A stretch of 64,000 nt of DNA from positions 124,001 through 188,000 of the forward strand of contig NZ_FXXQ01000009.1 in assembly GCF_900184815.1 (NCBI RefSeq), in the 5' to 3' direction. The stretch is from Boseongicola aestuarii. Its GTDB lineage: Bacteria; Pseudomonadota; Alphaproteobacteria; Rhodobacterales; Rhodobacteraceae. Positions within the stretch are counted from its first letter, which is position 1; each line of letters begins with the position of its first letter. This document shows, in pieces, positions 9,234 to 56,175 of the stretch. The notes under the pieces are model-generated. The model made no database searches. It was not told the DNA's origin and was given only the letters and a program-made list of their open reading frames with translations. The position numbers and the translations under genes were made by a program.

Positions 9234-9317
9234 CAACGTCGGTATCGCGTCGGTGCAACGTTGGTATCACGTCGGTGCACGTTGCTATTCACGCCGGCAA
9301 CACCACGAGATGTGGTG
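9234..9317. repeat. 11-bp tandem repeat element with GAGATGTGGTG motif, copy 1
   Basis: Units of 11 bp of the form ACGTCGGTATC start at 9236, 9247, 9258 and 9269, alternating TATC and TGCA ends, so there is also a 22-bp period. A decayed unit follows. A perfect hairpin CACCACGAGATGTGGTG ends the element at 9301-9317. A second copy with the same order and spacing lies at 32978. This copy sits between the divergent mini-ParB and DUF4389 genes. Confidence 0.8.
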
Positions 9318-9404
9318 TTTGACGTCAGAAAGGTGAACAAGCTCTTAACGCGGAAGGCGGATCGGTCTTATAGTGGGTCGAACCGGCGATTTGAGGGGTG
9401 CGAC

Positions 9405-18007: not shown

Positions 18008-18184
18008 CGATCCCCTCTGTCCCTGAACCTGAGAGTTTACGCAAAAGAGGTCTTTTGCTTTCTCCGTCGGTGGACCTGATGTGTCAGGCCGCTTTCCAGA
18101 TTGTCAGTCCATAGTGCAGTTCATTTGCCTGAGAGTTTCCGGGGGGTTGCTCCTTCGGCGCCGGGATGAACCGATCTCTCCTGC
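18008..18184 (-). ncRNA. Tandem glycine riboswitch (gcvT-type) upstream of dadA
   Basis: Read on the minus strand, the leader has GGAGAGA at 18181-18175 and the aptamer core AACTCTCAGGCAAA at 18138-18124. A second GGAGAAAGC follows, then AACTCTCAGGTTCAGGG at 18037-18021 with ACAGAGGGG. Two such cores in series are the hallmark of the cooperative glycine riboswitch. It ends about 50 bp before the dadA ATG. In known cases glycine binding usually switches expression on. The boundaries are by eye. Confidence 0.9.
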
Positions 18185-18247
18185 ACAGACCTTCGCGACA
18201 TCGCTCCGATAGGAGCATTGTTGATTCGGAGCAAGCGATTTTATGTG

Positions 18248-32977: not shown

Positions 32978-33060
32978 ACGTCGGTACAACGTCGGTATGA
33001 CGTCGGTATCACGTCGGTGCGACCGTTCGGTGCGTTAAGATAGAACCGCAAGATGTGGTG
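32978..33060. repeat. 11-bp tandem repeat element with AAGATGTGGTG motif, copy 2
   Basis: Four adjacent 11-bp units ACGTCGGTAYN start at 32978, 32989, 33000 and 33011, followed by a degenerate unit. AAGATGTGGTG lies at 33050-33060, 40 bp from the start of the last unit against 39 bp in the copy at 9234. This copy is in the convergent gap between SRAP and the SLC13 gene, so the element is not tied to promoters only. Confidence 0.8.
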
Positions 33061-46843: not shown

Positions 46844-47370
46844 GCGATCATTTTCGATTTGAGGTCGACGGCGCCGGCGAAGCGCGGGCTGAAATTGCGA
46901 CGATGATCGCGACGGGACACGCGGATCGCTGGCAGGTGCAGTATGCGCGTTGGCGGGTGATGATGGCGATGATCGGGGCGGGGATGCTGACGCTGATCGT
47001 AGTCATGGTTTTGGCGCGTCTGATCACGGGTGGGCAGCCGTCTTTGTTGCTTGGATTTGGCGCAGCGATGATCGGGGCAGGTGCCTGGAATATGCTGGCG
47101 CGGCGGTCGGTGGCGCGGCTGGTGGGCGGCTTGTCCGATCCGTCGCCGGTGATGGACGGGCCGCAGGTCTGGACGTTTGATGCGGACGGTGTGCGGATCG
47201 TGTCCGATGTTGTGGACAGCCGTTTTACCTGGCGCGCGTTTGATCGGGTGTTGGAGGGGCAAACGGCCTTGGGGTTGGCCTCGGGGGCGGTCTATTTCGC
47301 GATGCCTTTGGAGAATGCTGAAGTGCGGTCCGATCTGTTGGAGAGGATTGAAGCGTGGATGCTGGCGTGA
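46840..47370 (+). CDS. YcxB-like membrane protein 1
   Basis: A 176-aa protein with two hydrophobic segments near residues 42-62 (MMAMIGAGMLTLIVVMVLAR) and 66-84 (PSLLLGFGAAMIGAGAWNML). A C-terminal soluble domain follows (VWTFDADGVRIVSDVVDSRF, then TWRAFDRVLEGQTALGLASG) that resembles the YcxB domain, a PH-like fold. It starts with GTG overlapping the fdhD stop. Function unknown; its position inside a Mo-cofactor operon is unexplained. Confidence 0.7.
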   Translation: MSDHFRFEVDGAGEARAEIATMIATGHADRWQVQYARWRVMMAMIGAGMLTLIVVMVLARLITGGQPSLLLGFGAAMIGAGAWNMLARRSVARLVGGLSDPSPVMDGPQVWTFDADGVRIVSDVVDSRFTWRAFDRVLEGQTALGLASGAVYFAMPLENAEVRSDLLERIEAWMLA

Positions 47371-47891
47371 CGCGAGATGTGATCGAGCTTCGGTATCGGT
47401 TTGATACCGGGCTGTTGCCCGCCGCCATGTCCGGCTGGTGGAGGAGTGCGGTGCCTCCGCAGAAGTTCGTGCATCGCGCTGCGTTCTGGGCGGTGGTCTG
47501 GCTGGGGCTATTGGTGCTGGCGGGGGCAATCGGGCAGGCGGGCTTGTCGCCGACGTTTGTCGTTGCGGGTATCCTTGGGGCTGGCGTGATGGTGGCGGCG
47601 TTCGCCTATTTGCAGCGCACGCGAATGCGGCAGTTTTACCGGATCGTTGGTGCGCATTGGGACCGGACCGGCGAGATTTCAGTGCGGTTTGATGCGCTAG
47701 GGGTCAAGATGCGCGATGAGGTGTCGGAGCGGCGATACAGTTGGGCGGCGATTGATGCAGTCCAGAAGGCGAAGGGCGCGACGGTGTTGCGCACCGGTAT
47801 GTCGATGATTGCTATTCCCGACACGGCGATGCCGGAGGGTCTTGGTGCGAGCGAGTTTCGGGCGCGGTTGAATGGATGGAGAGGCGCGTGA
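47355..47891 (+). CDS. YcxB-like membrane protein 2
   Basis: A 178-aa protein with two hydrophobic segments near residues 44-60 and 64-84, then EISVRFDALGVKMRDEVSER followed by YSWAAIDAV, matching the C-terminal domain of the preceding protein. The two are tandem relatives. A GAGAGG stands 8 bp before the GTG at 47355; the GTG at 47367 (GTGA overlap) is an alternative. Function unknown. Confidence 0.7.
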   Translation: MDAGVTRDVIELRYRFDTGLLPAAMSGWWRSAVPPQKFVHRAAFWAVVWLGLLVLAGAIGQAGLSPTFVVAGILGAGVMVAAFAYLQRTRMRQFYRIVGAHWDRTGEISVRFDALGVKMRDEVSERRYSWAAIDAVQKAKGATVLRTGMSMIAIPDTAMPEGLGASEFRARLNGWRGA

Positions 47892-55650: not shown

Positions 55651-56175
55651 CTGCATGCGGACCCGTGACGGATTTGGGCTCAAAGCCGTCATTCTCTGCT
55701 GTGCCGTGTCCCGCTCTCCGATCTTCCGAATCGCATTAATCGGGGGGCGGTTTTACCCGGACTTGCCAAAGCGCAATTAGGCGGGCAGACTGAAATCCGC
55801 GCATCGGTTGCGATGGAACCGGTGACGCCCGATAGCAGACGCAGGACTGATGTGCTCGGTTTTGCGGCAATAAAATAACGCGTTAAATCGCTGTTAACCG
55901 CCTTTGTGTGGTTGAAAGCCGCGGCTGTGGTTGCTATCTCGTGCGCTCAGGCGGAAATTTGATTCGGTGATCGCGCAGTCACAAACCACATAAGTCATTG
56001 ATATTGCTCTATCATAGCGTTCCAGGAATGGTGCGCTTTGATAGGGCAGTTGACGTTTCGGGCGAGGGATCTTTGGGAGGTCTCTCTGGTATGGAAACGA
56101 AAACTGTCCCGATCTGGCACTGCTGCGGACGCCCAAACCGTGTCAGCGCCGATTAAAAACGGAGATCCATATCCT
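55651..56175. other. Long upstream region of rpoB
   Basis: About 525 bp without a convincing gene. It holds a CtrA-type box at 55883 and AT-rich stretches near 56000-56030 (CATTGATATTGCTCTATCATA) that may include the rpoB promoter. Frames in it are short and have no protein-like pattern. Confidence 0.4.
55883..55898. promoter_or_regulatory. CtrA-type binding site (TTAA-N7-TTAAC)
   Basis: TTAAATCGCTGTTAAC is an exact match to the full CtrA box of alphaproteobacteria. It is about 280 bp upstream of rpoB. Chance matches occur in AT-rich gaps, so binding is unproven. Confidence 0.45.

Follow-up and report, generated by a model that had tools for sequence, protein, structure and literature searches.

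Two short stretches of a Boseongicola aestuarii contig, both within the 64,000 nucleotides analysed here (the window), carry four direct repeats of an 11-bp unit, which raises the question of whether such arrays are a simple satellite, a protein-binding site, or a mobile intergenic element. A sequence-only reading of the window had described them as two copies of one composite element, in which the units are followed at a fixed distance by the motif AGATGTGGTG, and had favored the latter two explanations. The features concerned are as follows.

9236–9279, plus strand: copy 1, four 11-bp units, ACGTCGGTATC GCGTCGGTGCA ACGTTGGTATC ACGTCGGTGCA (unit starts 9236, 9247, 9258, and 9269)
9275–9299, plus strand: variant tail of copy 1, GTGCACGTTGCTATTCACGCCGGCA, found at one other genomic place (contig C38, L148/L240)
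9299–9319, no strand assigned: hairpin AACACCAC-GAGAT-GTGGTGTT with a perfect 8-bp stem, containing GAGATGTGGTG at 9307–9317
32978–33021, plus strand: copy 2, four 11-bp units, ACGTCGGTACA ACGTCGGTATG ACGTCGGTATC ACGTCGGTGCG (unit starts 32978, 32989, 33000, and 33011)
33019–33029, plus strand: terminal motif of copy 2, GCGACCGTTCG (family consensus GCGMCCGTNCG)
33035–33038, plus strand: TTAA of copy 2, +24 from the last unit, the first half of TTAR-N7-TTAA, with the second half absent
33051–33060, plus strand: AGATGTGGTG of copy 2 at +40, a minority variant

The array family and its anatomy

Both positions carry tandem units on an 11-bp period, as the sequence-only reading had stated, and the units recur more often than expected by chance: two adjacent units matched exactly at 76 places in the B. 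aestuarii genome compared with none for a reversed control, at 133 compared with none when up to one mismatch was allowed, and at 199 compared with 54 with up to three mismatches. In this 4.0-Mb genome, at least 53 arrays, including both window arrays, were called in fetched surroundings by a caller that tolerated few mismatches (32 of the 40 stretches fetched gave a called array; L130, L132, L134, L149, L161, L162, L167, and L168 did not). Outside this genome, the two-unit matches listed comprised at least 96 arrays, of which 89 were retained after removal of seven on off-target or unassigned records (dropped loci: L032, L039, L043, L045, L049, L096, L123, and L124). Among the retained arrays, 28 come from Boseongicola MAGs and 61 from other records. 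A genome of the window's genus, G001, corresponds to the Boseongicola Site_C11 MAG, with which it shares 200-base stretches in three of four contigs compared (the fourth pair does not overlap), so that these 28 probably lie within the genus.

The unit consensus is (A/G)CGTCGGTNNN, mostly present four times per array. When the 53 B. aestuarii copies, from which a position-specific consensus was derived, are aligned on the last unit, the unit reads (A/G)CGTCGGT followed by three bases, the first two of which are mostly AT. The last unit ends in GCG (ACGTCGGTGCG) and is followed by MCCGTNCG, which forms the 3' terminus of the family; 3' of it, TTAR-N7-TTAA is often found, with TT at +24/+25 and TAA at +36 to +38 in the same 53 copies. 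The number of units is four in 41, three in nine, two in two, and six in one of the B. aestuarii arrays (n = 53), and four in 22 and three in six of the Boseongicola arrays (n = 28). Arrays in the other records (n = 61) comprise five units in 24 cases, four in 17, three in 15, two in three, and six in two. In 51 B. aestuarii arrays (copy 1 and L148 were left out of this test), A/T content follows the helical period both upstream and downstream, at −125 to −46 and at +19 to +60, where none of 1000 jittered sets was as strong, whereas phasing at +40 to +120 was not significant (p 0.16). In the other records, phasing was significant in all intervals, but five-unit arrays extend into the upstream ones. 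The arrays are not palindromic (folding z from −1.60 to +0.95 for 8 copies, DNA parameters), and neither terminal inverted repeats, target duplications, nor pairing after the last unit were noticed by eye.

Against this background, copy 2 is a typical member of the family and copy 1 an atypical one. Between the two, the order and spacing of units and motif are indeed kept within 1 bp, AGATGTGGTG starting at +39 in copy 1 and at +40 in copy 2, and in copy 1 the motif does lie inside a perfect hairpin with an 8-bp stem. The genome-wide search that the sequence-only reading had called for returned further arrays in abundance but the motif at its fixed spacing in one other B. aestuarii array, L146 (+39); L148 has AGATATG at +39 instead of the full motif. 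The combination of units and full AGATGTGGTG is present in 3 of 53 B. aestuarii arrays and in 0 of 89 arrays in other records (both searched to +160); it is therefore a minority variant, and AGATGTGGTG was rejected as the general partner, a place taken by GCG-MCCGTNCG and next by TTAR-N7-TTAA. Copy 1 has the tail pattern GTGCACGTTGCTAT.C..GCCGGCA, of which the genome contains two instances. Its hairpin, the sole perfect 8-bp stem with a CGTC tag and A/T-first pairs in approximately 315 kb of B. aestuarii DNA examined (with overlaps), was rejected as a CGTC-tagged REP on account of this single instance.

Elsewhere in the window, positions 46952–46999 and 47494–47542 hold other short tandem repeats, with 24- and 19-bp periods. 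A search of the window at the Rfam gathering score gave two matches, neither at an array: a glycine riboswitch aptamer (18107–18193, minus strand) and a Rhodo-rpoB RNA motif (56055–56148, plus strand).

Strand, gene context, and spacing

The strand on which an array reads is the G-rich strand of its flanks in 51 of 53 B. aestuarii arrays, 38 of 40 arrays in genome G273, 26 of 27 in Boseongicola, and 51 of 60 in other genera (one array from each of the last two sets was omitted because its flanks were short). The agreement extends over the surroundings: when the region from −1.9 to +1.9 kb is divided into 380-bp bins, 85–94% of B. aestuarii arrays agree with GC skew in every one. Array strand is independent of the direction of neighboring genes: within tandem gaps it is random relative to the genes (14/15 in B. 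aestuarii, 13/13 in G273), and where both neighbors oppose the array, the skew still agrees in 14 of 15 and 12 of 13 cases, respectively. Of 169 genes of at least 600 bp in 20 B. aestuarii samples, 98 are on the strand with positive skew.

On a larger scale, contig C1 of genome G214 shows a clean switch. Arrays there are 15 plus and 3 minus before 1.45 Mb and 3 plus and 11 minus after it (p 0.0009), and the sign of the skew, measured after the strand switch had been seen, changes from the sample at 1.38 Mb to that at 1.50 Mb; 25 of 32 arrays agree with the nearest skew sample. In contrast, around the single-contig chromosome C1 of G273 the GC skew forms a mosaic (20 samples), which may reflect numerous inversions or an origin not located at dnaA. 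If dnaA marks the origin, only 33 of 74 arrays in G273 run along the leading strand; dnaA may not be at the origin, rearrangements may have moved skew and arrays together, or the alignment may have been set when the arrays arose. Agreement with 12-kb skew samples within 60 kb is also lower, at 21 of 31 in B. aestuarii (p 0.07) and 40 of 57 in G273. Taken together, the failure of the dnaA-based arms, the mosaic skew, and the weaker agreement at 12 kb mean that the alignment is one with local skew, and an alignment with present-day replication is seen in G214 only.

The arrays are intergenic in 52 of 53 B. aestuarii cases, 17 in convergent, 29 in tandem, and 6 in divergent gaps, with genes called by a home-made codon model. 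Compared with 63 array-free gaps of at least 90 bp in the same genome (7 convergent, 37 tandem, and 19 divergent), convergent gaps are enriched (17/52 versus 7/63, p 0.006) and divergent gaps depleted (6/52 versus 19/63, p 0.02). The corresponding numbers are 12 convergent, 26 tandem, and 1 divergent among 39 gaps in G273, and 17, 49, and 11 among 77 in the other records, for which there is no baseline and where a convergent preference is not evident. Some arrays begin within 20 bp of a stop codon and some stand just before a start codon (L140, L143); the functions of the neighboring genes, judged from sequence, are mixed. In G273, 74 hits (of 77, as used for the spacing and strand tests) have a mean spacing of 49 kb and are more even than expected (CV 0.75 versus 0.98 by chance, p 0.003), and the 32 hits listed on C1 of G214 gave p 0.05, so that evenness is firm in one genome, G273. 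No gradient toward the terminus was found in G273, where counts from dnaA to the opposite pole are 14, 11, 17, 12, 7, and 13.

Retention, sequence constraint, and taxonomic range

At least 19 of the 53 B. aestuarii arrays have a same-strand array at the syntenic place among the matches listed in other records, giving at least 28 pairs in total: 17 have partners in Boseongicola and three (L001, L133, and L138) in other records, one having both. The search pattern used for those records fixed units −11 and 0, so that unit −22 is the one unaffected in identity comparisons. In 19 pairs aligned without gaps, its core is 97% identical (133 sites), compared with 26% at its last spacer base (19 sites); positions −44 to −34 are 37% identical (209 sites), and the flanks 48% (−60 to −45), 71% (+19 to +40), and 60% (+41 to +59). 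A neighboring gene homologous to the neighbor of a B. aestuarii array (cut-off 45% identity or more, with one pair at only 48%) was found for 12 of the 40 G273 arrays with the best scores, and side and strand are the same in all 12; the remaining 28 share no neighboring gene with any B. aestuarii array. When these 12 pairs are anchored on the last two units, the core of unit −22 is 88% identical (84 sites) compared with 33% (12 sites), 50%, and 8% at last spacer bases, and the flank stretches are 27–45% identical (45% over the 132 sites of −44 to −34). Unit cores are thus conserved, in contrast to the drifting last spacer bases and outer flanks.

Array strand can nevertheless differ at one gene pair. 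The serC–serA gap holds an array on the same strand in B. aestuarii, G273, G221, and G155, one on the opposite strand in G059 and G270, a diverged opposite-strand array in G184, and a degenerate remnant in G255. Skew of the serA strand is +0.06 to +0.22 at the same-strand arrays and near zero at the opposite-strand ones (G059, G270, and G184). In this gap (L199, L201, L217, and L232), the genera with same-strand arrays have an altered SerA N-terminus (MQDKPK-, METKPK-, and MTQKPK-); the usual AAGGA-type ribosome site is missing there, an arrangement that would fit replacement of the gap together with the array. A convergent gap (L025/L044) likewise has arrays on opposite strands in B. aestuarii and a Boseongicola MAG; the flanking genes are approximately 80% identical, while the remainder of the gap is unrelated. 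An array approximately 700 bp before mraZ in B. aestuarii (L153) and G273 (L276) is one common position among many.

All five genomes of the genus carry arrays. Across Rhodobacteraceae, sampled as one genome per genus, exact two-unit matches were found in 17 of 295 genomes, and a profile search (E ≤ 0.01) matched at least 38 of 295 genera, at least 18 of which hold seven or more arrays; the other 257 gave no match among the candidates scored, as a rule 19 per genome in the family and 15 in the class, which makes the profile counts lower bounds. In a sample of 385 genomes of the class (E ≤ 0.001), at least five matched, namely B. aestuarii, three more members of the family, and one weak single match elsewhere. 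The arrays are therefore numerous in some genera of Rhodobacteraceae and almost lacking in the remainder of the class. Carriers among the matches listed include, besides Boseongicola MAGs, Pseudooceanicola, Roseobacter, Sulfitobacter aestuariivivens, Salinihabitans flavidus, and Thalassovita taeanensis; in complete or near-complete genomes, profile hits at E ≤ 0.001 number 77 in G273, 77 in G214, and 21 in G059. In a SerA tree of 39 of 40 genomes (G034 was left out), B. aestuarii, G155, G273, G221, G146, and G184 form one array-rich group (support 99/98), and the other array-rich genera are scattered (10 changes versus 13.3 for shuffled labels). A search of 72,556 plasmid records with copy 2 (76 bases) found no match, a weak test with so short and repetitive a query. 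Open-access text searches, including one for the string ACGTCGGTA, yielded no description of the element among the matches listed, and to that extent the family is undescribed.

In other genera, diverged units read CGTCGGCANN or CGTCGGAGTN (L186, L191, L192, L194, and L205), and this drift of the unit by lineage suggests a co-evolving binder. A long tandem repeat around CCCGCGTCGGTATCN in G112 (L195) has a similar core on a different period and is not the 11-bp array.

Proposed role, alternatives, and known systems

At the level of sequence, these results establish a dispersed family with a defined anatomy, constrained units, intergenic placement, helically phased flanks, and alignment with local GC skew. 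The sequence-only reading's preference for a protein-binding array over a satellite is borne out by the constrained cores, near-constant unit number, intergenic place, phased flanks, and skew-tied strand. We propose that the arrays are polar sites on the chromosome to which a putative protein binds head to tail, and that their logic is similar to that of KOPS but without a terminus gradient, a reading to which we give about an even chance. Each array would be one polar DNA site in a dispersed, vertically kept family, to whose (A/G)CGTCGGTNNN units a putative sequence-specific protein might bind, one protomer for each turn of the helix; binding on one face of the helix would fit direct repeats spaced by a helical turn, a conserved core, and variation at the last spacer base. 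Such head-to-tail binding would give the complex a direction, and the terminal GCG-MCCGTNCG together with the phased A/T flanks may mark its end and aid bending. Since array strand is independent of gene direction and follows the G-rich strand, a role in replication or segregation rather than transcription is suggested. If GC skew reflects replication direction at most sites, as we infer, approximately 50–80 intergenic sites around the chromosome would be oriented along the leading strand and could tell a chromosome-scale machine (a translocase, or a segregation or topology factor) its direction, as KOPS, which the FtsK gamma domain binds, do for FtsK.

More tentatively, and in our estimate possible rather than probable, this could be a whole-chromosome direction system of some Rhodobacteraceae, in which the putative protein reads 50–80 leading-strand arrays approximately 50 kb apart, and in which arrays re-form on the other strand of a gap when its strand environment changes and decay where the system is lost. 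The skew contrast at serC–serA is our ground for the former, and the G255 remnant for the latter. Whereas the polar chromosome signs known so far are single octamers detected statistically, each sign here would be an array of 44–55 bp that can be seen, counted, and aligned singly, and that is long kept at named gene pairs. Since arrays occur in some genera and not in their sisters, a reader protein should be findable by comparison and pull-down. MraZ was rejected as this protein, as it occurs in 37 of 38 genomes irrespective of whether they are rich in arrays.

The main rival is a strand-biased mobile repeat, non-autonomous and entering the single-stranded lagging-strand template between genes, with later maintenance by descent; we consider it unlikely, though the most serious of the alternatives. 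Single-strand transposition of the IS200/IS605 type gives a replication-linked strand bias, with which the array strand would agree, and the random strand relative to the dnaA-based arms of G273 fits a mark made at the time of insertion. Inverted copies within one gap (L025/L044, and serC–serA in G059 and G270 versus B. aestuarii, G273, G221, and G155), a patchy distribution on the tree (10 changes), turnover (28 of 40 G273 arrays without a common neighbor), and a preference for tandem and convergent gaps as in REPs, according to the available part of PMC3733652, also favor it. The arrays, however, lack a palindrome, keep their cores while last spacer bases drift, and are evenly spaced in G273. 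The Y1/RAYT transposase (PF01797) is absent from B. aestuarii, for which reason RAYT mobility was rejected, and from G273, and was found in only 2 of 14 array-rich and 0 of 14 array-poor genomes. The mobile intergenic element that the sequence-only reading had offered as an alternative is thus disfavored by retention of place and strand and by the missing palindrome and transposase, and favored by strand bias and inverted copies. Even as such a repeat, the arrays would be missed by surveys based on stem-loops.

Other explanations are considerably less probable. Strong DNA gyrase sites, in which the array would serve the GyrA C-terminal domain as a phased region for wrapping, could account for the 11-bp phasing of 44 bp and for the phased A/T that flanks it, but the E. 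coli motif is degenerate and symmetric whereas the array units are nearly invariant and polar, and gyrase is, as far as is known, universal whereas the arrays are not; we regard this as improbable. A regulon, with tandem sites for a regulator of the OmpR/PhoB or BldC type that would control adjacent genes or unannotated small RNAs, we hold to be quite improbable: some arrays do stand just upstream of a start codon (L140, L143), and TTAR-N7-TTAA resembles the CtrA site, but divergent gaps are avoided, and array strand is random relative to genes in tandem gaps, yet fixed to GC skew. The head-to-tail binding of BldC to varying numbers of direct repeats, described in the available part of PMC5859096, speaks for this explanation. 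We give almost no credence to an RNA-level element in transcripts (3' UTR or terminator), which would suit the arrays close to stop codons; the arrays show no strand preference relative to genes, no folding signal with DNA parameters, and no Rfam match at either window array.

With regard to known systems, MraZ boxes are tandem and about one helical turn apart, but the MraZ operator differs from the arrays in its TGGG motif, its period of approximately 10 bp, and its position beside mraZ. TGGG boxes were observed in G214 and G014; six of them, with a period of approximately 10 bp, lie upstream of mraZ in G214 (L299) and are likely the MraZ operator.

Closest in logic to the proposed direction-giving sites are AIMS (architecture-imparting sequences), short polar sites with a leading-strand bias that, according to the available part of PMC5993296, are thought to guide replication, repair, or segregation and are single octamers increasing toward the terminus, and KOPS, mentioned for Dinoroseobacter in the available part of PMC7901474. 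The arrays resemble both in being polar, chromosome-wide, and strand-biased, the bias being found by local GC skew and not by the dnaA-based arms of G273, and differ from the octamers in being intergenic tandem arrays of 44–55 bp, 50–80 per genome, without a terminus gradient in G273. CGTC-tagged REPs, as given in the available part of PMC3733652, have an 8–9-bp stem, a 4–5-nt loop, a CGTC tag, and A/T in the first two pairs. As far as that part of the source goes, the arrays share with REP/BIME elements a dispersed, intergenic placement with convergent or co-directional neighbors and the presence of CGTC, and they are depleted at divergent promoters (11 of 77 divergent in other records, without baseline). 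Unlike REP/BIME, they are direct helical-turn repeats without the stem-loop, hence without the tagged hairpin, and no RAYT-type transposase was found in the B. aestuarii genome. In the portion of PMC5859096 available, the Streptomyces regulator BldC has a 9-bp A/T-rich protomer site at promoters, in varying numbers of tandem repeats; the arrays resemble such operators in their tandem direct repeats read head to tail, and share the repeat of approximately one turn with BldC, OmpR, and PhoB operators, but differ in their 11-bp CGTCGGT unit and their place, mostly away from promoters. Finally, the E. coli gyrase motif, as described in the available part of PMC6379681, spans approximately 130 bp with two flanks of G+C at a 10.75-bp period, and gyrase is recruited to BIME-2 as well as to DNA downstream of transcribed loci. 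Helical phasing over approximately 130 bp and a position downstream of transcription units may be common to the arrays and these sites, which within that description are degenerate, symmetric, and without a conserved unit; the phasing of the arrays lies on both sides of a center that is a polar direct repeat. BldC operators and the gyrase motif may serve as analogies for how the arrays could be bound and wrapped.
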